Under the pieces are notes generated by a model. That model made no database searches, was not told the DNA's origin, and saw only the letters and a program-made list of their open reading frames with translations. From the IMG/VR virus record IMGVR_UViG_3300020470_002954, positions 1 to 22,856 of that record: a stretch of 22,856 nucleotides of DNA. One strand, given 5' to 3'. Positions within the stretch are counted from its first letter, which is position 1, and the number at the start of each line of letters is the position of its first letter. Below, piece after piece: positions 1 through 18,000 of the stretch. A program made the position numbers and the translations under genes. This DNA is from a virus.

Positions 1-3000
1 CAACTTCCAAATTATATTTTGGATGAGAGTCCTCTTACGTCTGATTTTCTTAAACAATATTATATTTCACAGGAATACCAAGGTGGTCCTATTGATCTTG
101 CGGATAATTTAGATCAATATTTAAGACTTGATAACTTGACTCCTGATGTTGTAGTAGATTCTACGACATTATCAGAAAAGATTAGTAGTACAGATACAAC
201 AATAACAGTATCTAATACAAAAGGATTCCCAAATACTTATGGGTTATTGAAGATTGATAATGAAATTATTACATATACAGAAAAAACATCTACTACATTT
301 ACTGGATGTGAACGTGGTTTTAGTGGTATTACTACATATCATCAAGATTTAAATGAAGAAGATCTTGTATTTTCTACTTCTAATGCCGCAGAACATGATA
401 AAGATGCAAATATACAAAATTTAAGTTCTTTATTTCTTAAAGAATTTTATAAGAAAACAAAGAAAACTTTTACACCTGGACTGGAAAATATTGATTTCAA
501 TTCTGAAGTTGATGCTGGTAATTTTATAAGAGAAGCAAGATCACTTTATGAAAGTAAAGGAACAAATGAATCATTTAGAATATTGTTTAATGTTCTTTAT
601 AATGAATCTCCTAATATTTTAAATTTAGAAGATAACTTAATTAAACCTTCTACTGCAAGGTATGTTAAGAGAAGAATTGCAATAGGACAATTAATTAGTG
701 GTAATCCCTTAAAATTAAAGGGAGAATCAGTATTTAAAAGTAATTTAAACACTGATATTAATATTTCTGTATCGGAAGTTGAACCATTTACTAGGGTTGG
801 TGTAGGAACTTATTATAAATTTGGATTATTCATTGATAATAGTGGATCTAATGAGATTTCAAATTCATTTGATATTATTCCAAATACAAAGGTAATTGGA
901 AATGTATCTAGTGGTTCTTCTATTATTACTGTAGATTCTACAATTGGTTTTAGTACTTCAGGAGTTTTAATATCTGGTGATAATAAAATAAATTACACAA
1001 ATAAAACATTAAATCAATTCTTGGGAGTAACTTCCATTACTTCTAATATTGAAACAATGGATGATATCAGAAGTGATGAATATTATTATGGTTATGAGAA
1101 TGGTGATATTAATAAAGAAGTAAGATTGAGATTTACTGGAGTATTGTCTGAATTTGATCAAGATCGTACATTATCAGTAGATGAGGGGGATATTATAGGT
1201 GTAAAACATATAGGAGATAAGATTAAAAATAATAATAAAAATTATAAAGAGATATTCGCAAATTCTTGGATTTATAATAGTAGTTCAACAACTAAACTTG
1301 AATATTTATCAGATGGGGCAGCATCTGCCAATTTGATGAGTCCAGTGGATAGATCAAATTTAAAATTTGGTGATAGAGTAGAATTTGTTGATAGCACTAC
1401 TAAAAATATAGTTTATCCCACTCCCGGTAAAGCATTTCCATATGTCAGTCAAAAATTACAGAATGGGCAAAAAGGAATTGATTTGAATGAATTAGATCAG
1501 TTTGAAGTTACTAAAGATGATAATTTTTCTTTAAGAAGAAAATTAAAAACAGCAAATAGTTCTTCTACTCCTATAGAATTTGGTAATGATAAAGTAACTT
1601 CTGATGTTCAGAATGTTTATTTTGGGGATAATTATGCATATGTTGCATCAAATTCTTTACCATCTTATAGTCCTGATGGTACTTTTCCATATAATGAACA
1701 AATAAATGTTAATATTAGATCATCAACATTAAATTTATCTGATGATCCTAATGGGTTAGATCCAGATAGTATTGTTGATAATGATCCAGTAAAAGCATTA
1801 TACAGTACAATATCATTTAGTGAACCTCATTTATTTGAAAATGGTGATAAAATTTATTATGAACCAACAAATGCTCCTTTAGTTGGTATAGAAACTGGAA
1901 TTTATTTTATTAAAACAATTAACGATAAAGATATCCAATTGTATGGATCTAGATCTAGTATCATAAGTAATCAGTACATTCCTATAGGAAAACCTGCATC
2001 TGATGATGGTAAGCATAAATTTACATTATATTCACAAAAATCTGGTGAAATTGCCCCTCAAAAATTATTTAAAAAATTTCCATTAAGTTCTAATATTAAT
2101 AATGGTGAATCAACATCGACTATCACTGGTGGTACTGGTATGTTGATTAATGGTGTAGAAATTAATAATTATAAATCATCCGATAAACTTTATTATGGTC
2201 CATTAGATAGGGTTTTAGTAGTTAATGGTGGTAATAATTTTGACGTAATAAACCCTCCAAATATTACTATATCAAAATCATCTGGTACAACAGCACTTGT
2301 ACAACCCATTTTATCAGGTAAAATTGATAAAATCTTTATCTCAAATCAAGATTATGATATTGAATCTGTAGTTTCTATTGGTATTAGTGGTGGTAATGGA
2401 ACTGGATATAATTTAGAACCTGTTCTTAAAATGAGGTCTAGGGAAGTTTCATTTAATTCTGAAGCAACAACTTTTGGTGGTGGTATTAATACTTCCCCAA
2501 ATACTGGTGATACTGGTAAAATAACCTTTTTAAGTGAGCATAATTTTGTTACAGGACAATTAATAAGATATGAATCTTCAAATGGTTCTTTGGCAGGTAT
2601 TGGTGTAGGCAACGATACTTTATCAAATTTTGGAAATTATTATGCCAGAAAGATGAATGCTACAACAATTAAAGTTTATAATACATATGAGGATTCTATT
2701 TTTGGAACTACTGGAATTAATACAATTCATTTTAATGGAACTGGATTTGGAATTCAGAAATTTACAAGTGATCCAAAACTGACTCTTGATGATATTAGAA
2801 TCTTAGATGGTGGAAAAAATTATACTAATAGAAAATTATTAGTTAAACCAACTGGAATATCAACTTATACGGATACTATCATCTTTAAAGATCATGGATT
2901 TAATAGTGGAGAATTGATATCATATTCTGCTGTAGATGGTAATTCTGCAAAAATAGAGGGATTGGAGACAACTAATGATGTTCAATATTATGTTCTTAAG

Positions 3001-6000
3001 ACAGATGATGATAAATTTAGGTTATGTAATGCTGGTGTTGGAGGAACAAATAGAACAAATTATGAAAATAAAAACATTCAATTTTTAGGAAGTACTGGAA
3101 CTGGATATCAACAATTTTCTTATCCTGAGATAAAAGGATTTGTAAAAATACTTTCCACAACAGGTCAAGAATCTGATATTCCAATAACTCCATCAGTTAA
3201 AGGATCTATAATTGATGTTTATGTATATGAAGGTGGAACTGGGTATGGGTCAACAATTGCTAATAATGAAATAAATCCAACTATTACAGTAAAAACAGGT
3301 GTAGAAGCAGTATTAACACCATATTTTAATAATGGATCTGTGTTGAGTGTTGATGTTGAGTATGGTGGTAAAGATTATTATTCATTACCTGATTTACAAG
3401 TTATTGATCCTACTGGAAGTGGTATTGGTGCAGAATTAAAACCAATTATACAGAATTTGAAACTAACAGGTGTTGAAATTTCCAATCCAGGGATTGGATA
3501 TTCATCATCTTCTACAATTTCAGTTAAGACTGCTGGACAAAATTTAAAACTTATTCCTCAAATAAGATCTCTTACAATTAATAATAAAGTTAAGTTTGGT
3601 GGTGATAGTGATTATTATCAATTGGTTGAGACTAACAATAAATTAAAATATACTGCATATGCATACAATTCTACTCTATTTGACGATGATGGAAGTAAAT
3701 CTTCAGGTATTATTGGATGGGCATATGATGGAAATCCAATATATGGTCCTTATGGTTTAGGAGATCCTAGTCAAAGTCCATCAGATACTACTGAATTAGC
3801 AAGAGAACTTAAAAGTGGATATGTTTTGGATACTGCTAATATAATTGATAGACCATCAATAAATGATTTTGAGGAAGGATATTTTATTGAAGATTATAAA
3901 TTTGATAATAGTGGTGATTTGGATAAATTTAATGGTAGATTTGAAAAAAATAAGGAATTTCCTAATGGTGTTTATGCATATCATGCTACTATCAATAAGT
4001 TTCCATATTTTATAGGTAATGAATATAGATCATTGCCTATAGATGAAAATTTCTCTGTTTTTGATCAATCTACGTTCGATTTTAATACTTCAGGTGTATT
4101 AAGAAATACTTTACCATATAAAGTATCAGATAAGTTTGCTGATAATGATTTTATTATTGAAACTGATGAAATTCAACAACAAGAAATTGAAATTCAATCA
4201 GTTTCGAGTGGAAGTATAACTGGATATGATGTACTAGATTCTGGATACGATTATAAAGTTAATGAAACATTAACTTTTGATGAATCTGGAACAGAAGGAG
4301 ACTCATTATCTGTAAAAGTTGAATCTATAAAGGGTAAAGACATTAGTGTTATTGAAACTACAGTAGATACACATAATAATGCATTATTACTATGGAATGA
4401 AGATAGTATAGAATGTATTATTGAACCAAATCATACTTTAAATAATAATGATAATGTAATTATTTCAGGTCTTTCAAGTGATTTATCTAATATTAATGGA
4501 TCTTATAAAATTGGAGTAACAACATTTTCATCAACTGCAATATCAACAATATTTTCTTCACCATCTTCAGGATTTACTACTGAAATTTATGTTTCTGGAA
4601 TACCAGAATCAATTTCTATTGGAAGTAGTATATTGGTAGGTTCAGAAACTTTAAAAATTCTGAATATATTTGATAATGTTCTTAGAATTGAAAGAGATTC
4701 GACCAATTATGCATCAGAATATCCAGCTGGAATAGGTGTAACTTATCTTACTAATTCATTCAAAATTAATAAGGAAACTAATTATTTTAATTCTTCAAGA
4801 AAGAGAAGTATTTATTTTAATCCTACTAAATCTGTTGGTATTGGTACTACTCCAGGAACTAATTATCAGGTATCATTTGATTTTGCAGGAAATAGTGTTA
4901 CTAGAAATATTCCTGTAAGGCAACTTTATATTGAAAATCATCCATTTAAGACTAATCAAAAAGTTTCTTTAACAATACCTTCTGGAAATATTTCAATATC
5001 AACTAATAAAATAGCTCCTCCATTTAACATACCAACATCTCTATATGTTGTAAATAAGGGAGTTAATACAATTGGAATAAAAACGGGAATTGGTACTGCT
5101 AGTGATGGATATGCATATGAAGACGTTTATTTCCGTAGTCTTACCAATGCTGATACTGATAAGTATTTGTTGCAATCAGATGATGATGTTCAAGTTACAT
5201 CTAAAGTTCAAAGGATAAAATCAGTAGTTTCAATATCAACTGAAAAAATTGGACAATTTGGATCATTTAATTCTGGGTATCATGAATTATCAGATGGTGA
5301 TGATATTATATTGAAAGTTAGTCCAAATATTAATTCTGGAATAGGATCAGATACTAATATTGAAGTAAAACGTGATTTATCAACAGGAAATCTTTTAATT
5401 AATCCAATTACTTTCAATACTGGTAATGTCAATATTAATGATAATAGTATTACATTGGGATCTAAAGGGTTTAATTTAAAAACAGGTGATAAAGTTTTAT
5501 ATTCTGGTAGTGCTGCAGGATTATCTACAGGAAATTATTATGTTTATAAAGTTGAGGATAAGAAAATTAAATTATGTAAAACATATTTTGAAGCAACAAA
5601 AGAAATACCAAATGTTATTGATATTACAAGTGTAGGTGAACCAAATCAATCTATTAGTTTGATAAATCCACCTATTAAAAATACAAATAATACCAATTTG
5701 GTATTTGATCATTCAGATTCTTCTATGAATGGGTATGATTTTAAAGTATATTATGATCAAGAATTTAAAAATCTATTTGTTGGAACAGGAAATACTTCAT
5801 CATTTAACGTTTCGACCACTTCAAATACTACAACTCTTACTTATAGTGATGATTTACCTAGAAAACTTTATTACAATATAGAAAAATCAGGATTTATTTC
5901 AACTTCTGATACTGATGTTGTAGATTATTCTGAAATATTATCGATTGATAGTGTATATAATGGCAAATACAGTGTTAGTGGTGTTGGGAAAACAAACTTT

Positions 6001-9000
6001 AACGTATTTTTAAATGAAATTCCAGAAAGAACAACATATCAAGCAAATGAATGTGACGTAATAGAATATACAACCAAATCAAAGTCTGCAAAAGGTCCTA
6101 TTGATAAAATAAATATCATTTCTGGAGGATCTGGATATAAAAATCTTCCTACTTTTGTTGGTGTTGTAAGTACTTCAATAGGTAAAGATGCATCAATTGT
6201 ATTGAAATCAGATACTATGGGTGATGTATCTAAAGTTAGATTTATTAATTCTGGATTTGAGTATTCATCAGATAAAACTTTAGAACCAATTGCTTATGTA
6301 TCACCAATAGTGGAATTGAAAGATTCAAATAGTGTTGGTATTGTGAGTGTAATTTCTGGTGGGGAGAATTATCTTAGTGCACCAAAAATTAATATTATTA
6401 ATTCTAGTACTAAAAAGGAAATTAATAGTGGATTATTAGAGGCAGAATTATTAGATACTTCTATTTTTGCAGTTAATGTTGTAGAAAAACCTTATGGATT
6501 ACCAGAAAAAACAGTAACATTAAAAACAACTAATAATACTAATGGTATTACAATTTCACGAGTAGATTCACCAGGAACATCATCTGGACCATCAAATCCT
6601 AGTGAATTTCTTGTTACTCTTGTTACTCCAACAATTAATTTTGGAATTCCACCATTTAAAGTAGGTGATGAAGTTTTTATTGAAGGTATTGAAAAATATG
6701 GTACTGATGGTACTGGTTGCAATTCAACAGATCTTGGGTATGAATTTTTGAAAGTGACTGAAATTATAGGTAGTAGTTTAAATCCAAATCCATTTAAATT
6801 TAGAGTTAGTGCTGTTGGATTATCTACTGGAGTCGGCATTGCAGTTACAATACCAACTAAATTTACCTCAGTAGTTCATAAATCTGATTATCCAACATTT
6901 AGTGTTGTACAATCAACAGAAAATTTTGATATTGGTGAAACTTTAGTTGTAAATGATGTAATAACAAATATTAAAATAACTCAAAATAATTTAACTTCAA
7001 TTAAAGTTAGTGGAACTAATGTAGATGATTTGAGTATTGATGATGATATTGTTGGAAATACATCAGGAAATAGAGGAAAAATAAAAAAAATTACTGGAAA
7101 TGATGGTAGATATAAGATTGATTTTTCATATGTAAAAGATATTGGTTGGTTTGATGAAATTGGAAAATTAAATGATGATACTCAAGTAACACCTAATAAT
7201 GATTATTATCAAAATTTATCTTATTCAGTACAAAGTTCTATTACTTGGGATAAATTACAAACACAAGTAAATAATATTCTTCATACTAGTGGATTAAAGA
7301 ATTTTGCAGATACTGGAATTACTTCAACAACAAATATTGGTGTTGGATCTTCATCAGTAACGACTATAATACGTGATTATGTAAGTGAAAATAGAGTTGA
7401 TGAAATTAGAGGTCTTGATTTGGTTAGAGATATTGATGTTGCAGGTAATGTAGCAAGATTAGTGGAATTTAAGAATTTAAGACTATCGGACTATATTAGT
7501 TGTATAAGTAATGATGTTTTTGTTATTGATAATATTAATAGTCAATTTTCAAATTTAGAAGATACTGAAACTTATTATACAGATATAATGGAAGTTCCAG
7601 CAGATGGAAGATATACTAATTTGTTGGTTAGGATTAGTGATAATAATCGTATTACAGGAATATCAACACAAATTCAATTATCAGAATTGGTTTTGATGAA
7701 TTCTTATGCTTATTCTGCAAATAATCAAAATACTTTGTTAGAAAAATATAGAGTATTTAATTCTGATGTTGATGGATATGTTTCTATTGAAGAAGATCAA
7801 TTAGGTAGTTTTAAAATTGAAAAAAATGATAATAATATAAACGTTCTTAGATTCTATCCAAGAGATAAGTTTGATACTGATTATGATTTAAAAATTCTTA
7901 CTGGTAAATTCACTACCGTTAATTCTGGTGTTTCCACAATTAAAGTTGGTTCAATTAATAAGAGTGTATTTATTCAAACAGTTCCTACTGGAAATACTGA
8001 TTTAATAGTGGAAGTTGGTATTGATAGTATAAGTTCATTATTTGCAAATAGTCAAATTATTGATGTTTCAACTGGGGAAATGAATTTTGTTGAATCTTAT
8101 ATAACACAAGATGGACAACATAGTTTTATATCAGAAGCATATAATGATACTAATCCAGTTGCAACTAGTGATAATAAAATTGGTATTCTAACTTCTACAT
8201 TATCAGGAAATGTTTTATCACTCAAATATGAAAATAACACATCATCCAATGTAATTATTAAGTCTAGTGTTGTTGGTTTTGGATCAACTGGATTTATTAC
8301 ACCAGAAGGACATACTGGTGTTGGAACATATAGATTTAAATCAATTGATGAACCAGATGGATATGAAAGATCTTTAATTTATCAAGGAATATCAACCAAT
8401 GGTGTTGGAAAAACAACAATTGTTGATATAAATTCTAATTTATTTGATTCTGTTAAATCTATAGTTGAAGTTAGTGTAGGATCTTCAAAAGCAGTTCATG
8501 AAGTATTATCTGTTCATGACACAAATAATATTTTTGTACAACCAGCAAAATTCATTTCAGGGGTAGTTTCTCCAATTGGTAATACTGGACTAGGTACTTT
8601 TGGTGGTGAATATGAAGGAGGTAATTTAGTTGTTAGTTTCTATCCAGATGATGAAGTTGGTATGACCACAGTATCGATACTTAATGAATGTTTCTATACT
8701 GGGGTTGATGCATTAAATATACCTCAAACTTTATTCTATGGAAATGTTTACAATGAAAAATTAGGATACAAATATTACAATGGTATTAGTGCTGATCGTA
8801 TCAATAGAAGGGATTTTAAATTAAATACAAATTCTATTCCTATATTTGCAAAATCATTTAATCCAAATTCCTCTACTTTAGATGCTGATACAGGTACTTT
8901 CGATATAGATAATCATTTCTTTAGAACTGGTGAAGAATTAGTTTATACTCCAAAATCAACAATAATTGGTATTGGTTCTACACCCGTAATGTATCATGAT

Positions 9001-12000
9001 ACAAGTTCTGGTATTACATCAACCTTACCATCTACAGTATTTGGTATAAAGAAAACTGATAATTCATTCCAAATTGCAACTACAAGAGCAAATGCAAATG
9101 CTGGTACCGCAATAACATTTACTGGATTTGGTGAAGGAAATGCACATACTTTATCAATGAAAGATCCTAATGAAAGAGCATTGATAACTATCGATGATAT
9201 AGTTCAATATCCAATAACACCAACTCCAATATCACATACTTTAAAATATAACCATGATGTTCATGTTGGATTGGCAAATACTATATTCTCTTTAAGTGGT
9301 ATTGCAACAATACATGTTGAGGATATATTAAAAATTGGTAATGAATATATGAGAGTTAATGATGTTGGTACTGGAACAAGTTCAATTGGTCCAATTACAC
9401 CAGGAATAGGAACTTTCCCATTAGTTGCTGTTGAAAGAGGTTCTGTTGGTACTGCTAAATCTAATCATGAAAATGGGGATCAAGTTAATAAGTTTAAAGG
9501 TGGTTTTAATATTGTAGATAGTACAATTTACTTTACCAATGCACCAAGAGGAAATCCTAATAGATCTTTAACTGAGAGTGGATTAGAATTTCCAACATCT
9601 GAATTTACAGGAAGAGTGTATTTAAGAAATAATTATGCTACAAATGACATATATGATGATGTTTCTGATCAGTTTAATGGAATAACTACATCATTTACAT
9701 TAACTGTAGGTGGAGCTAATACTATTGGTATTGGAACTACAGGTGGGAATGGTATTTTATTCATAAATGGTATATTCCAAACACCAACAACAGATAATAA
9801 TCCAAAAAATAACTTTAAGATTATAGAAACTGGTAGTGGTGCAACAGGTGTAACTAGTGTTATATTCTCAGGAATAACTTCAACTAATGGTGAATTAATT
9901 ATTTCTGATGATGATGTTAATCGGAATGGAATACCTAGAGGTGGAATTCCTGTATCATATGGTTCAACAACTGGATCTGGTTATGCACCTTTAGTTGGAG
10001 CAGTAGTAAGACCTGTTTTGGATGGAGATGGAACTATTACTGGTATAGTTGGTGTTCCAACTGCTGGAAGTCCATTGGCAGTTGATAATGCACAATATGA
10101 TAATACATCTGGTATATTAACAGTTACTACTTTTGAAGAACATCAATTAGTTAATGGTGGAGTTAGTGTTGATGAAGTTAAATTGATGCGTCTTGAATTT
10201 TCATGTCCTTCTGGAACTGGTATAACAACTACTTTCTTCCCAAGTGGTGTTTATGGAGATAGGTTCTCTGTTATTAGTGTTGGTGCAACAAATGAATTTA
10301 CAGTAAATGTTGGAACTAGTACAATTCCACATACCTATGTTGGTTCTGGAACTGCTTTCCCATATTATGGTGATTTAAAACTAGGATCTGGATATAATGG
10401 TCTAAATCCTATCAATGTTTCAGTTATAGATGATGGATATAATCATAGATTTGTAAGTGCTGATAGTAATTCAATTACTAAGACTACATGGGATGGTACT
10501 GCAATTACACCTACAAATGCAACATATCACCCTAGTTCTGGAATTGTTACCTTTACAGTAGCATCTCATGGATTAGCAACAGATGATTTGGTAGGTATTA
10601 AAACAGAGTCATTGACATTTAAATGCTCTAAAGACAATTATGCATCAGATCATAAGTATCCCAGACCACCATTCCCCCATACTTTTGATAGTGCTGATGC
10701 TAATGCTGTTAATAGCTCATTACAACCTACTGATGCTGCTTACAACCCTCTAACAGGTGACATGGTATTGACATTTGCTTCTCCTCATAATATAAGTAAT
10801 GGACCAAATGTAACAATTGCCAATAATTCTATCAAATTTAAGTGTTCTAGAGATGGTTTTACAACAATACATAGTTATCCAAGATCAACAGATCCTGCAT
10901 CTGGATCTAGTTTAACGGTTTCTAATGCATCTGCTAATGGTGGAAAAAGTCTTACAGTTAATGTTGGAAAATCCAATACAGGAGATCATGTAGCTGGTAT
11001 TTTAACAGCAGTTACTAAGGTAAATGATGATATCTTTAGTGTATTTGTTGGTTCTTCCGTAGGAAAGGATGCAACTATTACAGCAACACCAAAAACATAT
11101 AATACTCATGTATTTGATTCTGCTAATAGTTCTTTAACTGATGCAATTTTAATTGATGATTGGACTGGTTCTACAGTAAGAACTCCAAGTAATGCAACAT
11201 ATGCTCCAGATACTGGTAATTTGGTATTGTCAATTGGATCTCATTCATTTACAACTTCAAATACTGTTGGAATTAAAACTAGTTCTTTAGCATTCAAATG
11301 CAATCAAGATGATTACAATAGTATTCATAAGTATCCTAGAACAACAGATCCAGTTAATGGTGTACAAACTGCAATTACTGCTGTAGATCAATCTGGTGGA
11401 ACAATTACAGTTAATGTTGGAAAATCTAATGTTAATACTGGTGGTGCATTAGACTTTACTATAGTTGGTGGTGGTAAGAGTTATACTAATCCTGTAATAT
11501 CTGTATCACCACCATCATATAGTAATTTGGATGTAATAGGAGTTTCTAGATTGGGAGAAGGTTCAACTACAGATACTGGATCTGGTCTTCGTTTAACTGC
11601 TGTGGTTGGTGCTAGTCAGACATCTGGAATTGGATCTGGGTTTTTTGAAATTTCTGATTTTGAAATTACTAGAACTGGTTATGGATTTAAGAGTGGTGAT
11701 GTTTTTGAACCAATTGGATTGGTAACTGATAGAAAATTATATGAACCACTTGAAAAAGCAACAATGCAAATCCAAAATGTTTATTTTGATGATTTTGCAA
11801 TGTGGCAATTTGGAGAATTTGATTATATTGATTCGATTGAAAATTATCAGGATGGTCAAAGAACAAGATTCCCATTATATTATAATGGAAATAGAATTAG
11901 TGTTGATGCTGATCCAGAATTTGATAGTGATTTGAACAATGTAATGCTTGTGGTTATAAATGGTGTTATTCAACAACCAAAAGAAGCATATAATTTTATA

Positions 12001-13341
12001 GGTGGAGCAAGTATAAATTTTGTAAGACCTTTGGATAAAGAAGATAAGGTCGCAATATTCTTCTATAAAGGAACGGATCTTGAAGATGCTGTAGTCTCAA
12101 CAGGAATGACTGTGGTTGTTGAATCGGGTGATAGAGTTCAAATATCAGGTGTTGCAACTGGTTTTGATAATTCTGGTACCATAGGTGTTTCACAACAAGA
12201 CGAAAGAATTGTCAAGTATTTAAATACTTCAACCAGTTTAGAAACAAATATCTATACTGGAGATGGTGTAGATGAGGACGTATTCAGACCAATAAATCTT
12301 CTAAAACAGAAACAAGATCGGATAATTGATAGTACATTAGTAACAAAGAAAAGAGTTAGTTTAGAACCAATAATTCTTCCATCTGCAAAAATAATTGGTG
12401 ATTTTACTGCTAGTGATACTAGTTTTTATGTTGATAATGCAGAATTATTTGATTATGAACAACCAGATCAACAATTTAGTGGAATAATTGTTTCGGGTAA
12501 AGAAAATCCATCTATACCAACTGCAACTGCTACTATCAATACTACAGAAACTACAGTAACATCAATTTCAGTTACTGGAGGTTCTGGATATACTTCAGTT
12601 CCATCTGTTTCTATTTCGGCACCTCCAGAAATTGGTGTTGGTATTGGAACTACTGCAACTGCAACTGCAACCATATCTAATGGTACTGTAGACAACATTA
12701 CAGTAACTGAAGTAGGACTTGGATATACAATCGCACCTAAAGTCTCAATTGAACCACCAAGTTCGATTGAAGAGCATTTAGCATCACCTGGAGGTGGTAT
12801 TACAGTTCAATCATCTGCGGGAATACTTACTGGAATAGGGACAACTACTGTTGGTTCATCATTAGGAATCAAATTTATTGGTATGTCAACAGCAGGATCA
12901 GGAGTAGCTGCATTTGCCCCATTAAGTGTTGGAAATCCACTTTACATTTATGGAACTCAAGTTGGAACTGGAGTAACATCTATGGATGTTACGGGAGCTG
13001 ATAGTGTTGGTATTGGAACTAGTTTTGCAGATAATGTATATTCTGTTGCAGAATTTACTACATCTGGAAGTCAACCAAATATAGTTGGTATTATTACATG
13101 TGTGATAAAATCAGATACTAATGTAGTTGGACTTGCATCAACTTCAACAACCTTAAGTCCTGTTGGATATTATTCTGTTGGTAAGTTGAGTAATTTTACT
13201 AGAAGCTCTTCACCAATTTCTATTGGAGTCACTGGATTAACAATTGATAGTGGATTAACAACATTCCCAACATTACAAAGAAGAGGTGGTCCAGGAGATG
13301 ACACTTGGAAGCAAACTGGTGGATTAAAAACACCAGAATAA
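1..13341 (+). CDS. Giant modular baseplate/tail structural protein with YHYH-like domain (5' partial)
   Basis: The frame is open from base 1 to the TAA at 13339-13341, giving 4446 visible residues; the true start lies upstream. Residues below are codons counted from base 1. I see: a phage-conserved helical block near 130-215 containing AREARSLYESKGTN-like sequence (here REARSLYESKGTNESFRI); a YHYH-like domain near 1200-1345; a block near 1895-2050 found, as I recall it, in marine T4-like virion proteins; a DYYQNLSYSVQSSITW block near 2401-2440; four tandem units near 3361-3815; and a C-terminal block near 3925-4160 with WQFGEFDYIDS and NGVIQQP. Between these lie many Gly/Ser/Thr/Asn-rich beta-type repeats. 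It directly precedes gp8, the place of T4 gene 7 (gp7, 1032 residues), so a wedge or peripheral baseplate role is inferred from position. No signal peptide or membrane segment is seen. No frameshift is visible. It could instead act as a fibre or adhesin arm. Confidence 0.93.
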   Translation, partial: QLPNYILDESPLTSDFLKQYYISQEYQGGPIDLADNLDQYLRLDNLTPDVVVDSTTLSEKISSTDTTITVSNTKGFPNTYGLLKIDNEIITYTEKTSTTFTGCERGFSGITTYHQDLNEEDLVFSTSNAAEHDKDANIQNLSSLFLKEFYKKTKKTFTPGLENIDFNSEVDAGNFIREARSLYESKGTNESFRILFNVLYNESPNILNLEDNLIKPSTARYVKRRIAIGQLISGNPLKLKGESVFKSNLNTDINISVSEVEPFTRVGVGTYYKFGLFIDNSGSNEISNSFDIIPNTKVIGNVSSGSSIITVDSTIGFSTSGVLISGDNKINYTNKTLNQFLGVTSITSNIETMDDIRSDEYYYGYENGDINKEVRLRFTGVLSEFDQDRTLSVDEGDIIGVKHIGDKIKNNNKNYKEIFANSWIYNSSSTTKLEYLSDGAASANLMSPVDRSNLKFGDRVEFVDSTTKNIVYPTPGKAFPYVSQKLQNGQKGIDLNELDQFEVTKDDNFSLRRKLKTANSSSTPIEFGNDKVTSDVQNVYFGDNYAYVASNSLPSYSPDGTFPYNEQINVNIRSSTLNLSDDPNGLDPDSIVDNDPVKALYSTISFSEPHLFENGDKIYYEPTNAPLVGIETGIYFIKTINDKDIQLYGSRSSIISNQYIPIGKPASDDGKHKFTLYSQKSGEIAPQKLFKKFPLSSNINNGESTSTITGGTGMLINGVEINNYKSSDKLYYGPLDRVLVVNGGNNFDVINPPNITISKSSGTTALVQPILSGKIDKIFISNQDYDIESVVSIGISGGNGTGYNLEPVLKMRSREVSFNSEATTFGGGINTSPNTGDTGKITFLSEHNFVTGQLIRYESSNGSLAGIGVGNDTLSNFGNYYARKMNATTIKVYNTYEDSIFGTTGINTIHFNGTGFGIQKFTSDPKLTLDDIRILDGGKNYTNRKLLVKPTGISTYTDTIIFKDHGFNSGELISYSAVDGNSAKIEGLETTNDVQYYVLKTDDDKFRLCNAGVGGTNRTNYENKNIQFLGSTGTGYQQFSYPEIKGFVKILSTTGQESDIPITPSVKGSIIDVYVYEGGTGYGSTIANNEINPTITVKTGVEAVLTPYFNNGSVLSVDVEYGGKDYYSLPDLQVIDPTGSGIGAELKPIIQNLKLTGVEISNPGIGYSSSSTISVKTAGQNLKLIPQIRSLTINNKVKFGGDSDYYQLVETNNKLKYTAYAYNSTLFDDDGSKSSGIIGWAYDGNPIYGPYGLGDPSQSPSDTTELARELKSGYVLDTANIIDRPSINDFEEGYFIEDYKFDNSGDLDKFNGRFEKNKEFPNGVYAYHATINKFPYFIGNEYRSLPIDENFSVFDQSTFDFNTSGVLRNTLPYKVSDKFADNDFIIETDEIQQQEIEIQSVSSGSITGYDVLDSGYDYKVNETLTFDESGTEGDSLSVKVESIKGKDISVIETTVDTHNNALLLWNEDSIECIIEPNHTLNNNDNVIISGLSSDLSNINGSYKIGVTTFSSTAISTIFSSPSSGFTTEIYVSGIPESISIGSSILVGSETLKILNIFDNVLRIERDSTNYASEYPAGIGVTYLTNSFKINKETNYFNSSRKRSIYFNPTKSVGIGTTPGTNYQVSFDFAGNSVTRNIPVRQLYIENHPFKTNQKVSLTIPSGNISISTNKIAPPFNIPTSLYVVNKGVNTIGIKTGIGTASDGYAYEDVYFRSLTNADTDKYLLQSDDDVQVTSKVQRIKSVVSISTEKIGQFGSFNSGYHELSDGDDIILKVSPNINSGIGSDTNIEVKRDLSTGNLLINPITFNTGNVNINDNSITLGSKGFNLKTGDKVLYSGSAAGLSTGNYYVYKVEDKKIKLCKTYFEATKEIPNVIDITSVGEPNQSISLINPPIKNTNNTNLVFDHSDSSMNGYDFKVYYDQEFKNLFVGTGNTSSFNVSTTSNTTTLTYSDDLPRKLYYNIEKSGFISTSDTDVVDYSEILSIDSVYNGKYSVSGVGKTNFNVFLNEIPERTTYQANECDVIEYTTKSKSAKGPIDKINIISGGSGYKNLPTFVGVVSTSIGKDASIVLKSDTMGDVSKVRFINSGFEYSSDKTLEPIAYVSPIVELKDSNSVGIVSVISGGENYLSAPKINIINSSTKKEINSGLLEAELLDTSIFAVNVVEKPYGLPEKTVTLKTTNNTNGITISRVDSPGTSSGPSNPSEFLVTLVTPTINFGIPPFKVGDEVFIEGIEKYGTDGTGCNSTDLGYEFLKVTEIIGSSLNPNPFKFRVSAVGLSTGVGIAVTIPTKFTSVVHKSDYPTFSVVQSTENFDIGETLVVNDVITNIKITQNNLTSIKVSGTNVDDLSIDDDIVGNTSGNRGKIKKITGNDGRYKIDFSYVKDIGWFDEIGKLNDDTQVTPNNDYYQNLSYSVQSSITWDKLQTQVNNILHTSGLKNFADTGITSTTNIGVGSSSVTTIIRDYVSENRVDEIRGLDLVRDIDVAGNVARLVEFKNLRLSDYISCISNDVFVIDNINSQFSNLEDTETYYTDIMEVPADGRYTNLLVRISDNNRITGISTQIQLSELVLMNSYAYSANNQNTLLEKYRVFNSDVDGYVSIEEDQLGSFKIEKNDNNINVLRFYPRDKFDTDYDLKILTGKFTTVNSGVSTIKVGSINKSVFIQTVPTGNTDLIVEVGIDSISSLFANSQIIDVSTGEMNFVESYITQDGQHSFISEAYNDTNPVATSDNKIGILTSTLSGNVLSLKYENNTSSNVIIKSSVVGFGSTGFITPEGHTGVGTYRFKSIDEPDGYERSLIYQGISTNGVGKTTIVDINSNLFDSVKSIVEVSVGSSKAVHEVLSVHDTNNIFVQPAKFISGVVSPIGNTGLGTFGGEYEGGNLVVSFYPDDEVGMTTVSILNECFYTGVDALNIPQTLFYGNVYNEKLGYKYYNGISADRINRRDFKLNTNSIPIFAKSFNPNSSTLDADTGTFDIDNHFFRTGEELVYTPKSTIIGIGSTPVMYHDTSSGITSTLPSTVFGIKKTDNSFQIATTRANANAGTAITFTGFGEGNAHTLSMKDPNERALITIDDIVQYPITPTPISHTLKYNHDVHVGLANTIFSLSGIATIHVEDILKIGNEYMRVNDVGTGTSSIGPITPGIGTFPLVAVERGSVGTAKSNHENGDQVNKFKGGFNIVDSTIYFTNAPRGNPNRSLTESGLEFPTSEFTGRVYLRNNYATNDIYDDVSDQFNGITTSFTLTVGGANTIGIGTTGGNGILFINGIFQTPTTDNNPKNNFKIIETGSGATGVTSVIFSGITSTNGELIISDDDVNRNGIPRGGIPVSYGSTTGSGYAPLVGAVVRPVLDGDGTITGIVGVPTAGSPLAVDNAQYDNTSGILTVTTFEEHQLVNGGVSVDEVKLMRLEFSCPSGTGITTTFFPSGVYGDRFSVISVGATNEFTVNVGTSTIPHTYVGSGTAFPYYGDLKLGSGYNGLNPINVSVIDDGYNHRFVSADSNSITKTTWDGTAITPTNATYHPSSGIVTFTVASHGLATDDLVGIKTESLTFKCSKDNYASDHKYPRPPFPHTFDSADANAVNSSLQPTDAAYNPLTGDMVLTFASPHNISNGPNVTIANNSIKFKCSRDGFTTIHSYPRSTDPASGSSLTVSNASANGGKSLTVNVGKSNTGDHVAGILTAVTKVNDDIFSVFVGSSVGKDATITATPKTYNTHVFDSANSSLTDAILIDDWTGSTVRTPSNATYAPDTGNLVLSIGSHSFTTSNTVGIKTSSLAFKCNQDDYNSIHKYPRTTDPVNGVQTAITAVDQSGGTITVNVGKSNVNTGGALDFTIVGGGKSYTNPVISVSPPSYSNLDVIGVSRLGEGSTTDTGSGLRLTAVVGASQTSGIGSGFFEISDFEITRTGYGFKSGDVFEPIGLVTDRKLYEPLEKATMQIQNVYFDDFAMWQFGEFDYIDSIENYQDGQRTRFPLYYNGNRISVDADPEFDSDLNNVMLVVINGVIQQPKEAYNFIGGASINFVRPLDKEDKVAIFFYKGTDLEDAVVSTGMTVVVESGDRVQISGVATGFDNSGTIGVSQQDERIVKYLNTSTSLETNIYTGDGVDEDVFRPINLLKQKQDRIIDSTLVTKKRVSLEPIILPSAKIIGDFTASDTSFYVDNAELFDYEQPDQQFSGIIVSGKENPSIPTATATINTTETTVTSISVTGGSGYTSVPSVSISAPPEIGVGIGTTATATATISNGTVDNITVTEVGLGYTIAPKVSIEPPSSIEEHLASPGGGITVQSSAGILTGIGTTTVGSSLGIKFIGMSTAGSGVAAFAPLSVGNPLYIYGTQVGTGVTSMDVTGADSVGIGTSFADNVYSVAEFTTSGSQPNIVGIITCVIKSDTNVVGLASTSTTLSPVGYYSVGKLSNFTRSSSPISIGVTGLTIDSGLTTFPTLQRRGGPGDDTWKQTGGLKTPE
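172..350 (+). repeat. T-GF / NEIITYT module, copy 1 in the giant protein
   Basis: Codons about 58-116 read as a short beta module: a TTITVSNTKGF segment, then LLKIDNEIITYTEK, then a FTGCERGFSG ending. The same plan recurs at 889-1035, more loosely at 4600-4790 and 9223-9500 of this gene, and at 21385-21645 of the downstream DUF4815-like gene. The role is unknown; the layout suggests a small beta domain reused on the virion surface. Confidence 0.65.
889..1035 (+). repeat. T-GF / NEIITYT module, copy 2 in the giant protein
   Basis: The order VSSGSSIITVDSTIGF, a short link, then INYTNKTLNQFLG matches copy 1 position by position: SIITV with TTITV, TIGF with TKGF, INYTNKT with ITYTEKT, and QFLG with TFTG. 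It is shorter because it lacks the ERGFSG tail. It lies about 180 codons after the phage-conserved helical block. Confidence 0.6.
1816..3123 (+). repeat. Three H-x-F-x-x-G beta modules interleaved with GG-x-Y modules
   Basis: Three units share the plan 'H, F, (T/N/S)G, (K/Q/E)LI-YES..., G..., YY-V/A-K..., I-L/V'. Unit 1 is near 1828-1960 (PHLFENGDKIYYEP), unit 2 near 2533-2700 (EHNFVTGQLIRYESS), and unit 3 near 2890-3060 (DHGFNSGELISYSAVDG, then QYYVLKTDDDKFRLC). GG-x-Y segments lie between them, near 2218-2350, 2377-2450 and 2806-2870. Related units occur at 5458-5680 and 8911-9170. These look like repeated beta-sandwich or Ig-like decorations; the fold is inferred. Confidence 0.6.
3220..3585 (+). 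repeat. Tandem GG-x-GY modules in the giant protein
   Basis: Three consecutive turns of the same module begin with YEGGTGYGST, VEYGGKDYYSLPDL and ISNPGIGYSSSS. Each is followed by a short beta strand, a Gly-rich ga(e/v)-(a/l) segment and a hydrophobic V/I-x-V strand. The periodicity is about 43-46 codons. The same module occurs near 6109-6410, 11455-11640 and 12550-12770 of this gene, at 14098-14290 in gp8, and at 20820-21060 in the DUF4815-like gene. Confidence 0.7.
3598..4035 (+). other. YHYH-like domain within the giant protein
   Basis: Codons about 1200-1345 include GWAYDGNPIYGPYG (codons 1239-1252), which matches the G-x-AYDG-x-PIYGP signature of YHYH-domain proteins. About 75 codons later comes NGVYAYHATINKFPYFIG, with the key His at codon 1328. 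This corresponds to the YHYH-x-T ... YPY-x-G end of the family, but the first His is Ala here (YAYH). YHYH domains (Pfam YHYH family) occur in secreted proteins of uncharacterised function. I recall them as embedded in large structural proteins of marine T4-like phages, which fits this context. The assignment rests on motifs only. Confidence 0.75.
5458..5680 (+). repeat. H-F-tG type beta module, copy 4
   Basis: The segment SKGFNLKTGDKVLYSGSAAG is followed by LSTGNYYVYKVEDKKIKLCK, the same order of elements as units at 1828-1960, 2533-2700 and 2890-3060. The YYV-K-x-dd-K-x-(R/K)LC core is closest to unit 3 (YYVLKTDDDKFRLC), suggesting those two are the nearest relatives. Confidence 0.55.
6109..6410 (+). 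repeat. GG-x-GY modules, second cluster in the giant protein
   Basis: Successive units start with ISGGSGYKNLPTF, INSGFEYSSDKTL and ISGGENYLSAPKINI, spaced about 40-45 codons apart, with V-K-V/I-SV strands between. The cluster follows directly on the conserved block at about 5690-6100, which contains YYDQEFKNLF, LYYNIEKSG and a conserved-looking ANECDVIEYTTKS. Confidence 0.65.
7198..7335 (+). other. DYYQNLSYSVQSSI block (phage virion-protein signature)
   Basis: Codons about 2400-2445 read NNDYYQNLSYSVQSSITW, then a short stretch ending ILHTSGLKNFADTG. From memory, large tail and baseplate proteins of T4-like phages carry a block of the form YYQ-(n)-SY-(v)-S ... W ... V ... (v)H..G...F. It is preceded by KDIGWFDEIGKLN and lies centrally in the protein, so it is useful as an anchor for homology. 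Its function is unknown. Confidence 0.55.
8911..9210 (+). repeat. H-F-tG module copy 5 with TTRANANAG and NERALITIDDIVQ
   Basis: DNHFFRTGEELVYTPKS begins a diverged copy of the H-F-tG module. It is followed by VFGIKKTDNSFQIATTRANA, FTGFGEGNAHTL, and NERALITIDDIVQYPI. I recognise the TTRxNAxAG ... GNAH ... ALITIDxIVQ string from structural proteins of marine T4-like phages. The T-GF / IGNEY module at 9223-9500 follows. Confidence 0.55.
9667..9880 (+). repeat. Surface module with NG-x-x-QTP signature, copy 1
   Basis: DQFNGITTSFTLTVGG, then GILFINGIFQTP, then NNFKIIETGSG and VIFSG follow the plan 'fdG-x-TsFtL ... l-x-iNGv-x-Q-P ... Y/F-x-i ... I-F-x' seen in many phage tail-fibre and baseplate proteins. 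A second copy lies near 11851-12085 with NGVIQQPKEAYNFIGG. Confidence 0.65.
10081..11445 (+). repeat. Four diverged tandem units of about 75-88 residues
   Basis: Units lie at about 10081-10338, 10507-10725, 10726-10987 and 11182-11445. The consensus order is '(N/D)A-x-Y-x-p-x-(S/T)G-x-(l/v)-(v)-(l/f)-t, SH..., v-x-I, l-x-F-(K/S)-C, D-x-y, H-x-YPR-x-tDP, TVNVG-x-S'. Each unit keeps one Cys (LEFSC, LTFKC, IKFKC, LAFKC). Units 3 and 4 share a 22-base identical DNA stretch (10952-10973 and 11405-11426), so part of the array may be recent. The tract between units 3 and 4 carries an FSVFVGSS segment. Confidence 0.8.
11851..12345 (+). other. Conserved C-terminal block of the giant protein
   Basis: WQFGEFDYIDS (just upstream, near 11803) introduces this block. 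It continues with QDGQRTRFPLYYNG, VINGVIQQPKEAYNF, VAIFFYKGTD and then RPINLLKQKQDRIIDSTL. It lacks the low-complexity character of the rest and looks like a discrete globular domain, with the NG-x-Q-P module at its core. As recalled, this string is shared by large virion proteins of marine T4-like phages; it may be the part that contacts the rest of the baseplate. Confidence 0.55.
12550..12775 (+). repeat. Paired GG-x-GY modules near the C-terminus
   Basis: ISVTGGSGYTSVPSVSISAP and ITVTEVGLGYTIAPKVSIEP are two clear turns of the module, about 43 codons apart, separated by a Thr/Ala strand (TATATATIS). The DNA under that strand holds three in-frame copies of ACTGCA (12652-12669). This is the cleanest pair in the window and serves as the reference for the consensus GG-x-GY-(t)-x-(x)-P-x-V-x-I. 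Confidence 0.75.
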
Positions 13342-13385
13342 TGATTATTTTAATATGTTGTATAAATATCTAAAAAACTATTAAG
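13342..13385 (+). promoter_or_regulatory. T4-type late promoter upstream of gp8
   Basis: The only sizeable gap in the window (44 bases) contains TATAAATA at 13361-13368, identical to the T4 late promoter -10 consensus recognised by the gp55-type late sigma factor with its sliding-clamp activation. By T4 geometry, transcription would begin about 13374, leaving a leader of roughly 12 bases before the gp8 ATG. I found no other perfect copy on the + strand. There is no Shine-Dalgarno-like sequence in the leader (ACTATTAAG precedes the ATG). No hairpin terminator for the upstream gene is seen. Confidence 0.78.
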
Positions 13386-15026
13386 ATGCCAGCGGTAGTA
13401 ACAGATCAATTTAGAATAGCGAATGCTAGTAATTTTATAGATTCTATATCAAATACTAGTAATTCTTACTATGTATTCTTAGGATTAGCAAATCCAACAA
13501 CTGGAAATAGATTAGCAGAAGGTTCGGAAGGTGTAGGTATTGGGAGAACTAGTACTTGGAATAATGGTACTGAGTTAAGTGTTCCAACTCCAACAGATAA
13601 TTTTCAATATCTATCTCTTTATAATGAGACTTCTCTTTTTGGTAAGAAAATAACCTCAGCCAATGTTAAAAGGGTAATTACGAAATATCAGTGGAAAGCT
13701 AATACTAGGTATGATATGTATCGTCATGATTATGATATTTCAAAAAATCCTGCACCAAATGGGAAAAGTGGGTTGTATAGTACAAATTATTATGTAATCA
13801 ATTCTGATTATAGGGTTTATGTTTGTATTGATAATGGATCTAGTGGAAGTTTACCTAAAGGAAAAAGATCTTTAGATGAACCAACATTTACTGATTTAGA
13901 ACCAACTGCAGCAGGAACAAGTGGTGATGGATATGTTTGGAAATATCTTTATACAGTTAATCCTAGTGATATTATAAAATTTGATTCTACAAAATATATT
14001 GTTTTACCAAATGATTGGTCAACCTCAACCGATCCTCAAATAGAAACTGTTAGAGATGCTGGTAATTCTGATTTATATAAGAATCAAATTAAAAAAGTTT
14101 ATATTGAAGATGCTGGATCTGGATATGCAGATACACCAACATCAGATGGTCTTACTGTAAATATATTAGGTGATGGTGAAGGTGGTAAAGCAATAGTAAA
14201 AGTTGTTGATGGTAGTATAAGTAGTGTTGATGTTATTTCTGGAGGTTTTGGATATACTTATGGAATACTTGATTTAAGTTCATTAAACAAAGCTGCTATA
14301 GGTAGTGAATCAGGAACTTTTAGTTATGCAAAATTAATACCAATTATTCCACCTTCTAAGGGACATGGATATGATCTTTATAAAGAATTAGGTGCAGATA
14401 AAGTTTTAGTTTATAGTAGATTTGATGATTCCACTAAGGATTTTCCTACAGACACTCATTTTGCACAAGTTGGTATTCTAAAAAATCCCAATAAATATAA
14501 TTCTACAGATATTTGTACATTAGGTGAATATTCATCATTAAGTTCGATGATGTTAACTTCAGCTGCGGATATTCCAACATCTTCTGCACTTATTGGTGCT
14601 CCAATAACACAAACACAAGCTAATGGTGATGTTGCTAAAGGTTATGTTGCATCATATGATGCAGAAACAAAAGTCCTAAAATATTGGCAAGATAGATCAT
14701 TATATTTTCCAAATTATAATGATCAATTAGATAATACAAGTGTAAATACAATTGCAAAATTTGTTCCCTTTGTATCTGATAGTAGTAAAAATGTTGTATG
14801 TGCAAGAACTGGAGCTACATTTGATGTAGTTATTGATACATCCATGAATGGTATAACAAAAGTAGTTGGTGATAAATTGGTAAATTTGGGGGTAGAATTT
14901 ACAAATGGACTTGCAAATTCTGAGATAAATAAAAAGACGGGTGATATAATTTATATCGACAACCGCAAAGAGGTTGAACGTGATTTAAGGCAAAAAGAAG
15001 ACGTTAAAATTATTCTGGAATTCTAA
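13386..15026 (+). CDS. gp8: Baseplate wedge protein gp8
   Basis: This 546-residue protein is the T4 gp8 homologue, a dimeric component of the baseplate wedge that binds gp7, gp10 and gp6 in T4. The shared elements I recognise are: VTDQFRIANASNFIDSI (residues 5-21, like T4 VTSKFRTEKMLNFYNSI); KYQWKANTRYDMY (100-112); DGYVWKYLY followed by YIVLP (181-208); THFAQVGILKNP (357-368, like FRQISIIMNP); and TGDIIYIDNRKEVERD with KIILEF at the end (518-546, like SGEMIYMENRPP...). T4 gp8 has 334 residues. The extra length lies mainly in a GG-x-GY insertion at about 236-300 and a second insertion at about 371-512. The ATG at 13386 is chosen because homology begins at residue 5 and the late promoter sits just upstream. 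A six-base gap separates it from the next gene, implying co-transcription. Confidence 0.95.
   Translation: MPAVVTDQFRIANASNFIDSISNTSNSYYVFLGLANPTTGNRLAEGSEGVGIGRTSTWNNGTELSVPTPTDNFQYLSLYNETSLFGKKITSANVKRVITKYQWKANTRYDMYRHDYDISKNPAPNGKSGLYSTNYYVINSDYRVYVCIDNGSSGSLPKGKRSLDEPTFTDLEPTAAGTSGDGYVWKYLYTVNPSDIIKFDSTKYIVLPNDWSTSTDPQIETVRDAGNSDLYKNQIKKVYIEDAGSGYADTPTSDGLTVNILGDGEGGKAIVKVVDGSISSVDVISGGFGYTYGILDLSSLNKAAIGSESGTFSYAKLIPIIPPSKGHGYDLYKELGADKVLVYSRFDDSTKDFPTDTHFAQVGILKNPNKYNSTDICTLGEYSSLSSMMLTSAADIPTSSALIGAPITQTQANGDVAKGYVASYDAETKVLKYWQDRSLYFPNYNDQLDNTSVNTIAKFVPFVSDSSKNVVCARTGATFDVVIDTSMNGITKVVGDKLVNLGVEFTNGLANSEINKKTGDIIYIDNRKEVERDLRQKEDVKIILEF
14098..14290 (+). repeat. GG-x-GY module pair inserted in gp8
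   Basis: Residues about 238-300 of gp8 read VYIEDAGSGYADTP, a Gly-rich GEGGKAIVKV strand, then VDVISGGFGYTYG. This is the same paired module as at 12550-12775 in the giant gene. It lies between YIVLP and GHGYDLYKELG, where T4 gp8 has no such repeat as I recall its sequence, so it is read as an insertion. Confidence 0.7.
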
Positions 15027-15032
15027 AAAACA

Positions 15033-18000
15033 ATGGCACAAAAAACAAATTTAAATATAAGTCCATATTATGATGATTTTGATTCTGAAAAGAATTTTTA
15101 TAAGGTTTTGTATAAACCAGGATTTCCAGTTCAAGCCAGAGAATTAACTGGTACACAATCTATCTTACAAAATCAAATACAATCTTTTGGTGATAATATA
15201 TTCAAAGAAGGATCTGTTGTTATTCCTGGTAATATTGCATATGATGGACAATTTTCTGCTGTTAAATTAGATATAGAAAATTATGGTATAGATATTTCAC
15301 TTTATATTAAAGATTTTATAGGTAAAAAAATTACAGGAAGAGTATCAGGAATAAATGCTATTATTAAATATGTTGCTTTACCTGGTGTTGATGCTGTTGA
15401 TGATGTGACAATTTATGTCACATATACGAGTGGAGATAATAATAATGAGTTAAAACCTTTTATTGATGGTGAGCAATTAGTTTGTTCCGATAGTATTACT
15501 TATGGAAATACTACAATAAATGCTGGAACTCCATTTGCATCTTTAATTTCTTCTGATGCAACATCTATTGGATCTGCTGCATTTATTAAAAAAGGTGTTT
15601 ATTTTATAAGAGGATATTTTGTAAATGTTACTGATCAAACTATCATTTTAGATTATTATACTAATACACCATCCTACAGAGTTGGGTTAAGAATTGATGA
15701 ATTAATTATTAATGCAAAAGATGATAATTCATTATATGATAATGCAAAAGGTTTTAATAATTTTTCTGCTCCTGGTGCAGATAGATTAAAAATTAATTTG
15801 GTTTTAACTAAAAAATCTATAGATGATCAAGATGATACTGATTTTGTTGAGTTACTTAGAGTAAAAAATGGAAAGATTAAGATAATAAATGCTAAATCTC
15901 AATATAATAAAGTTAGAGATTGGATAGCAGCAAGAACTTTTGATGAATCTGGAGATTATACTGTAAATCCATTTAAGATGTCAGTATTGGATTCATTAAA
16001 CGATAATTTAGGTAATGGTGGATTGTTCTATAAAGATGAAAAAACAGATCAATTAAATTCCCCATCTGAAGATTTAATGTGTGTAAGAGTTTCTGATGGA
16101 AGGGCATATGTTCAAGGATATGATATTGATAAAGTTGGAACTACTATAATTGATGTTGAAAAACCAAGAGATGTTGGAATTAACAGTACCGCAAGTGTTA
16201 ATTTTAATATGGGTAGTGTTATTAGAGTTAACAATGTATCTGGTGTACCGAAGCAGGGTGCATTAGTTGAATTTTATGATGGATTTGGACAAAGTGGTAA
16301 TAATATAGGTAGTGCAAGGGCATATAATCTTAGTTTAAGAAATGAAGAATATTCTGATGCTTCGACTGTTTGGGATTTAAGATTATTTGATGTACAAACA
16401 ACAACTCAAATTACATTAAATTCTGATATTTCACCATCTGATTTACCAGATTCTTCTTTTGTTAAAGGAAAAAGTAGTGGTGCTAGTGGATATTCTGTAG
16501 GTACTCTTGCAGCTGACACAAAAAGAATTGATTTAAATCAAACTACAGGAACTTTCTCTAAAGGTGAACAGATAGAAATAAATGGTGTAGAATTTCCTAG
16601 AATTATTGGTATAGCTACTGCAAATAGTACACAATCAATTAAATCTGTAAAATCAACTTCTGCTAACTTTCCAAACTTTACAGCAGATTCGAATTTAGAT
16701 ATATTCCAAATTCCAAATGGAATATCTGATTGTATGATTTCTGGTGGTTCAGGTTCTCCAGGTATTGCTACTATAACTTCTGGTGCGAAGCAATTTAGTG
16801 GACTTAGACCAGGATCTACAATAATATATCAAAAAGGAAATAATGGAGGTGGGGATCCTACTTACAATAAAGTTAAATCTATAGGTGTTGGTAATACAAA
16901 TATAGTTGTAGAAGCAATAACTCCAAGCATACCTGGTGTTTTTGATGGTAGTTTACCAACTAGTGCATCAACAACACAATCACCAATGAAAATGAGTGTT
17001 GGTGCACCAATAATAAGAGGAAGTGGTATTTTACATGCACCATTAGGTAATAGAAATGTATCTACAGTTGATCTTTCAAATTCTAATTTAAGGGTTACTA
17101 AACAATTAACTGGTTTGACTATTGGATCTCCAGGAGTTGCTAACCAACTTCTTGTTAATGTTAGTGATGTTACTGGACAATATACAGAAATTACTTCAGA
17201 TGCAACATTTGAACCTTTTGATGAAGAAAGATATTCTGTTCATTATAGTGGTGGTGGAACAGGTTCAATTACAGAAGATACATTTAAATATCAGTTAAAT
17301 GGTAGTAGAATTACCATTGATGGTTTGACTGATGGTAATAATAATATTCTTACAACATCTGTTAAGAAAAGGGGTATTAAAAGTAAGATAAAGAATTATA
17401 ATAAGAGTAAGATGGTAGATATTGTATATTCAAAATATGCAAAATCTGGTGATGTCGCAATTGGTATTGGTGCTTCTACAATTGCAGATGGTCTTACATA
17501 TGATAAGAGATATGGTTTAAGAGTTCAAGATGAAAAGATATCATTAAACTATCCAGATGTAGCTAAATTTATAGCAGTCTATGAATCTATTGATGGTGAA
17601 CAACCAACTTTAGATGAATTTAAATTTAGTAGTACTGCTAATGTCCAATTAAATGCTATTTTAGGTGAAAATGTTGTTGGGTATAACTCTAAGGCAATTG
17701 CTAGAGTAGTAAATAAATCATCTACAGATGTTAATACATTAGGAATTGTTTATTTGACAAATACTCGTTTTACAGAGGGAGAAGCCGTCAATTTTGATGA
17801 GTCTAATATTGATACCAACATCGAAGCAATAACTAATGGTACATATAAAGATGTTACAAATTCATTCAAATTAGATAAGGGTCAAAAAGATCAATATTAT
17901 GATTATTCTTCCATCATTAGAACTAGAGGATCATCAGAACCTTCTAGTAGATTATTAGTTATTTTTGATTATTATTCTATTACATCTGATGATGATGGTG

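Follow-up and report, generated by a model that had tools for sequence, protein, structure and literature searches.

A giant gp7-like baseplate wedge protein of a marine T4-like cyanophage: a core related to T4 gp7 with large additions at recurrent insertion places

Results

The gp7 locus and its integrity

In this work we analysed a stretch of 22,856 nucleotides from a viral genome (IMG/VR record IMGVR_UViG_3300020470_002954), referred to below as the window. Its genes, and the segments of the first gene product that are discussed in this study, are listed here; residues are counted from the first codon in the window and insertion places are called ports.

1–13341, + strand: gp7-like baseplate wedge protein, 4,446 of about 4,464 residues (open frame; phrog_2885, E = 0)
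1–141, + strand: first piece of the gp7 core, residues 1–47, helices (small-gp7 profile, 99.7% over 1–293; helices in the AF2 model)
154–366, + strand: port 1, a beta module within the core, residues 52–122, with a second copy at 295–344 (both found by a module HMM)
409–879, + strand: second piece of the gp7 core, residues ~137–293, corresponding to T4 ~708–828 (hhalign 93.1%; small gp7s against T4 98.0%; model Z 8.0)
880–7146, + strand: port 2, an insertion of ~2,090 residues, 294–2382 (gap between core matches)
3688–4011, + strand: YHYH-family domain in port 2, residues 1230–1337 (PF14240, E 5e-20; 72.6 bits against a cut-off of 25)
6076–6549, + strand: beta modules of GG-x-G-Y type, residues 2026–2183 (self comparison, and gp7 against gp8; weak)
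7147–7335, + strand: third piece of the gp7 core, residues 2383–2445, corresponding to T4 ~862–890 (hhalign 94.0%; motif HMM E 3e-11)
7336–13338, + strand: port 3, a C-terminal extension of ~2,000 residues, 2446–4446 (length comparison across gp7s)
10438–11430, + strand: three imperfect copies of a module of ~75–110 residues, residues 3480–3810, in port 3 (self BLAST E 7e-20, 4e-19 and 6e-12)
13386–15026, + strand: gp8-like baseplate wedge protein, 546 aa (phrog_438, E 2e-147; PF09215, Pfam Gp8, E 3e-10)
15033–22676, + strand: structural protein of 2,547 aa with DUF4815, called VrlC in related phages (phrog_358, E = 0; PF16075, E 9e-56)

The preliminary description of this DNA had reported an uninterrupted frame, at least 4,446 codons long, directly before gp8. 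This is what we found: bases 1–13341 of the plus strand form a single stop-free frame of 4,446 codons which is open at its 5' end, and the gp8 gene lies directly 3' of it. The start, which was to be fixed from upstream sequence, could be placed with the help of relatives, since all 47 of those tested that hold the upstream part have an ATG exactly 18 codons before the first residue of the window. The complete protein would therefore comprise about 4,464 residues and 482 kDa, with its first 18 codons outside the window; the mass of the part within the window is 480,173 Da. A contig about 73% identical to the window (L010) starts with the very gp7 codon that opens the window, and it may be that assemblies break at this point where the gp7 start is conserved and related phages occur together.

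From base composition, a frame of 4,446 codons would arise by chance with a probability of about 10^-174; 200 Markov-1 simulations gave frames of up to 134 codons. A contig from another metagenome (L264) is 99.75% identical to window positions 9681–19778, a further contig (L266) is 91.6% identical to positions 1695–22856, and unbroken gp7 frames of 4,470, 4,470, 4,468 and 4,572 codons, with no internal stops, are present in four relatives. The dN/dS ratio of the gene is 0.37–0.39 overall and 0.18–0.58 across blocks of 400 codons, so that by this measure the whole gene is under purifying selection. The assembly join or internal stop against which the preliminary description had cautioned did not appear in the nearly identical contig or in the complete frames of the relatives, and within the limits of sequence comparison an assembly error can be ruled out.

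The gene order gp25–gp6–gp7–gp8–VrlC was found in the nearest relatives and in the isolates P-SSM2, S-SRM01 and S-T4: the near relative L008 has gp25–gp6–gp7, and gp25 and gp6 stand directly before gp7 in the three isolates as well. The name VriC or VrlC is used at the corresponding place in S-SRM01, S-T4, phiM19 and HTVC008M. Two adjoining genes of Ochrobactrum phage OC bear the label 'T4-like gp7': the true gp7 and the one which occupies the place of gp6 (L096, 2106–3989).

The protein belongs to a known giant-gp7 family

Residues 1–4428 of the window protein match phrog_2885 over positions 19–4178 of 4179 (E = 0, 3130 bits), and this match is collinear and full-length. The label of this family is 'baseplate wedge subunit'; a search of the window against NCBIfam gave no match. 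We take the protein to be gp7, a component of the baseplate wedge, of a marine cyanophage which is T4-like and of the Kyanoviridae type. Annotated gp7 proteins have 3,328 residues in S-RIM44, 3,895 in S-SRM01, 4,749 in S-T4, 5,195 in P-SSM2, 6,076 in Syn9 and 6,619 in S-SZBM1. The 'extreme size' claimed in the preliminary description therefore holds in relation to T4 but not within the protein's own family, of which it is an ordinary mid-sized member whose size class was already known. These gp7s are among the largest virion proteins, they belong to very abundant marine viruses and they were annotated long ago.

The gp7 of P-SSM2 ('baseplate wedge initiator', PSSM2_111, 5,195 aa) and that of S-SRM01 (3,895 aa) are homologous to the window protein from the first to nearly the last residue, with 37–43% identity in the longest segment and with identical gene order and insertion places. 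The main difference in length is in the C-terminal extension, which has 1,458 residues in S-SRM01, 2,003 in the window and 2,668 in P-SSM2. Syn9 gp101 (6,076 aa) and S-SZBM1_208 (6,619 aa, 'baseplate wedge initiator') are also giant and have the same core as the window protein, whereas their port 1 has about 610 residues compared with about 70 in the window, and much of the content of their ports has no detectable similarity to it.

A role of these proteins in the virion, for which the preliminary description had proposed proteomics as a check, is supported for homologues by published data from a larger and a smaller relative. A mass-spectrometric study of 2022 detected S-SZBM1_208, with a mass of 724 kDa, in virions with 71 peptides and 13.5% coverage (PMC9146016), and the S-CREM2 wedge protein, which has 1,937 residues and occupies the same slot, was found in virions with 91 peptides (PMC10665884). 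Homologues of gp7 are also present in PHROG families 4406, 701 and 19630 and in RefSeq record NC_020484. Their labels, 'head and packaging' or 'head closure Hc2', look like annotation errors that have spread by way of modules in common.

Relationship to T4 gp7

The assignment as gp7, first made from gene position, proved right, and homology adds to it a common core, traced through smaller gp7s. According to profile comparisons, a conserved core of about 260 residues, comprising window residues 1–47, ~137–293 and 2383–2445, is homologous to residues 645–890 of T4 gp7 (1,032 aa; PDB 5iv5, 5hx2), and all of the ~4,100 extra residues lie at recurrent insertion places. The core falls into two parts, which in the window span residues 1–293 and 2383–2445. 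The position in the wedge is alike in the two proteins. The full-length comparison of the window and T4 profiles gave a probability of only 34%, so we took smaller gp7s as intermediates, and the link between the window and T4 rests on them. In an hmmscan of T4 gp7, residues 646–759 weakly matched three families, two of which hold gp7s of phiM19 and cyanophages. Profiles built from nine small gp7s (482–1,288 residues) aligned with the T4 family over T4 residues 644–828 with 98.0% probability and with the window family over residues 1–293 (98.2%) and 2383–2445 (94.0%; hhalign). With a deeper alignment of the window protein the match over residues 1–293 rose to 99.7% (E 1e-25), and a direct hhalign comparison of the T4 core with the window family placed it at window residues 177–275 (93.1%). 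As controls we used a reversed profile and nine other proteins of the T4 virion, none of which exceeded a probability of 0.8%. HMMs made from the small gp7s alone detected the core in every gp7 tested from T4-type phages and cyanophages, the second part of T4 being the weakest: the motif HMM for this part, which in the window reads YYQ..SY...VH..G...F, gave E values of 3e-11 for the window, 1e-6 for Phi1 gp7 and 0.005 for T4 gp7, the last of these weak when taken alone. A merged core profile (A3) recovered T4 gp7 with an E value of 5e-62, which is no test since A3 contains T4 sequences.

According to an earlier paper, pelagi- and cyanomyophages lack T4 gp7 and have VrlC in its place (PMC7029224). 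Judged by the profiles described here, the core homology contradicts this statement. A core HMM also hit VrlC of the window (residues 93–134) weakly, with E 0.002 in a set of seven proteins, which we judged to be chance.

When the window core alone was compared by sequence with solved structures, no relevant match emerged. The AF2 model of residues 1–564 had a moderate pLDDT of 68. Residues 161–392 of this model aligned with residues 708–853 of the T4 baseplate chain 5iv5_BJ (Z 8.0, 137 residues, rmsd 10.5), a score near the background level of the tool, in the register expected from sequence, while the other structural matches were mostly unrelated small beta-barrels. Judging by its length of 1,004 residues, 5iv5_BJ would be gp7, and we regard this match with a predicted model as suggestive. 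The core model also aligned with 9f4a_A0 (Z 7.5, 90 residues, rmsd 3.9), at the same model pLDDT of 68.

Ports and their contents

The core pieces follow a constant order in all gp7s that we could place, while their spacing is hugely variable, as seen from a table of the ports of about 30 gp7s. Port 0, before the core, has about 640 residues in T4 and 257 in phiM9, and is empty in cyanophages. Within the first part of the core, port 1 has no residues in the non-marine small gp7s and 65–110 in most marine gp7s, and in Syn9 and S-SZBM1 it reaches about 610. Port 2 has 16–35 residues in OC, SRB7757 and T4-type phages, 106–725 in the other small gp7s (725 in phiM19) and 1,499–2,709 in the large-gp7 cyanophages. 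Port 3 has 10–347 residues in most small gp7s, 771 in DLP6 and 137–155 in T4-type phages, and from 1,117 to at least 2,786 in the large-gp7 cyanophages, where it is a lower bound for L008, L012, L013, L047 and S-SZBM1, whose loci are cut at the 3' end (that of S-SZBM1 by 250 residues), and where the value of 1,117 comes from L072, whose frame ends unlike the others and may be shifted. The window protein has about 70, 2,090 and 2,000 residues in ports 1, 2 and 3. T4 has thus filled the N-terminal port with a part of 640 residues that is absent from the window protein, and has about 30 residues at port 2, whereas the window protein has filled the internal and C-terminal ports. The small gp7s of pf16 (523 aa), RHph_I1_18 (528), ACP17 (482), OC (631), BUCT-ZZ01 (607), Cr30 (767), HTVC008M (1,016) and phiM19 (1,007) lie directly after gp6 and share the core of the window protein in the same order but, unlike it, have ports which are nearly empty or hold only hundreds of residues. 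This anatomy of core and ports seems to us a useful addition to what was known, as it links the giant gp7s to T4 gp7 and shows the segments for structure work.

The preliminary description held that most of the extra length consists of repeated beta-type modules. Internal similarity is indeed detectable in 924 of the 4,446 residues, mainly in the three copies at 3480–3810, which are the only strong internal repeat (a shuffled control gave none). The statement is only partly borne out, and 'most' is not shown by the sequence, in which distant copies may escape detection. TRF found no tandem repeat in the gp7 gene. Residues 2026–2183, in port 2, are weakly similar to 1041–1138 and to part of gp8. 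The corresponding segment of gp8, residues 232–291 (window 14079–14258), has a module of GG-x-G-Y type in common with gp7 residues 2031–2089 and 1067–1160 (E ~0.02), possibly as a result of module exchange between neighbouring baseplate genes.

Two copies of a small beta module, TTITV...GFP...G.LKIDNEIITYT, are present in gp7, at residues 52–122 and 295–344 (window 154–366 and 883–1032), and the module recurs weakly in VrlC of the window (residues 2121–2169) and in the gp7s of Syn9 and S-SZBM1. The predicted fold of the copy at 52–122 matches domains of the virion proteins VP1 and JBD30 (Z ~10 for both) and of GP4, and the module seems to be a widely traded phage module.

The YHYH family has been proposed to be a metal-dependent hydrolase with a conserved histidine triad, forming the metal site, and an aspartate (PMC7824862). 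The triad is not present in the YHYH domain of the window protein, whose only histidine is residue 1328; among relatives this position is H, Y, F or R, and it is Y, F or R in 22 of the 45 aligned proteins. With the AF2 model of this region (pLDDT 62) no solved structure stood out, the best Foldseek E value being 0.57 and the best VIA matches, with Z 5.0, being immunoglobulin-like chains; this negative outcome carries no weight as evidence.

Discussion

How might such a protein work in the baseplate? Our literature search found no cryo-EM baseplate of a T4-like cyanophage, and our guide here is Vibrio phage XM1. Its gp17, an orthologue of T4 gp7 by structure with 242 residues, forms a core bundle with two copies of gp16 (gp6), on top of which sits the gp25 homologue; spikes are attached to an internal loop (80–106) and to the C-terminal residues 201–242, and a pull on these spikes may reach the sheath (PMC10457771). 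These two segments exit the XM1 core at places analogous to ports 2 and 3, although they consist of 27 and 42 residues which bind separate spikes, compared with ~2,090 and ~2,000 residues in the window protein. By this analogy residues 1–47 are probably the helix-turn-helix of the core bundle. We think it likely that the gp7 core sits in a (gp6)2–gp7 bundle and that the two large additions, since they lie at places analogous to the XM1 spike sites, belong to the outer baseplate, where they touch the host or hold spikes and fibres.

The core would then form the bundle that carries the sheath initiator gp25, and six copies of gp7 would be expected per tail. The two additions, one between core pieces and the other after the last of them, would emerge at the outer edge of the wedge and make up an outer baseplate rich in beta structure, which might contact the cyanobacterial surface or hold spikes and fibres. 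A pull on the additions might be transmitted by the rigid wedge to gp25 and then to the sheath, triggering contraction as proposed for XM1, and gp7 would take over in cis the work of the separate peripheral proteins of T4. The arms or skirt around the tail tip envisaged in the preliminary description are plausible; from the anatomy we would expect two large appendages that extend from the core of the wedge, not one array.

Could the additions instead be mainly architectural? Perhaps they form a skirt or scaffold which stabilizes an enlarged baseplate and anchors VrlC and separate fibres without direct contact with the host, a reading that is quite possible if not probable. Proteins of the VrlC type come next in the large-gp7 phages, and the YHYH domain does not have the proposed metal-binding histidines. 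The additions are also only moderately divergent (dN/dS ~0.4), not raised to the level typical of receptor-binding tips, and this counts against host contact in the reading that we prefer. On the other hand, the corresponding internal loop and C terminus of XM1 carry spikes, and the C-terminal additions differ widely in length among phages, neither of which fits well with a mere scaffold.

A wider version of the host-contact reading would see gp7 as a wedge core with fixed ports for lineage-specific outer baseplates. In the large-gp7 cyanophages gp7 alone would build the peripheral baseplate and make the host contact, replacing gp9–gp12 of T4 with six polypeptides of ~350–720 kDa. In this full extent we regard the idea as unlikely.

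It is also conceivable, but very improbable, that gp7 is a polyprotein which is cut after synthesis into separate virion proteins. Its length of more than 4,400 residues would suit such a scheme, and in Melnitz-1 and Mosig, where additional genes stand between gp8 and a gp7 that is short, some functions may be split in this way. Against this, the 724-kDa homologue was reported as one protein in virion mass spectrometry, although such bottom-up data are compatible with cleavage too. These separate genes of Melnitz-1 and Mosig (L090, L099), whose gp7s have 896 and 874 aa, may encode in trans what cyanophages carry within gp7.

Finally, that the frame arose by chance or by an assembly join can be dismissed, even for a metagenomic contig with an open 5' end and with the gene fragmented in S-SKS1 and in one IMG/VR record, given the minute chance probability, the independent contigs, the complete frames of four relatives and the purifying selection throughout the gene. 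In those two records (S-SKS1, L005, and the IMG/VR record, L057) the gp7 gene lies in pieces which are partly unannotated, probably owing to sequencing errors in a very long gene.
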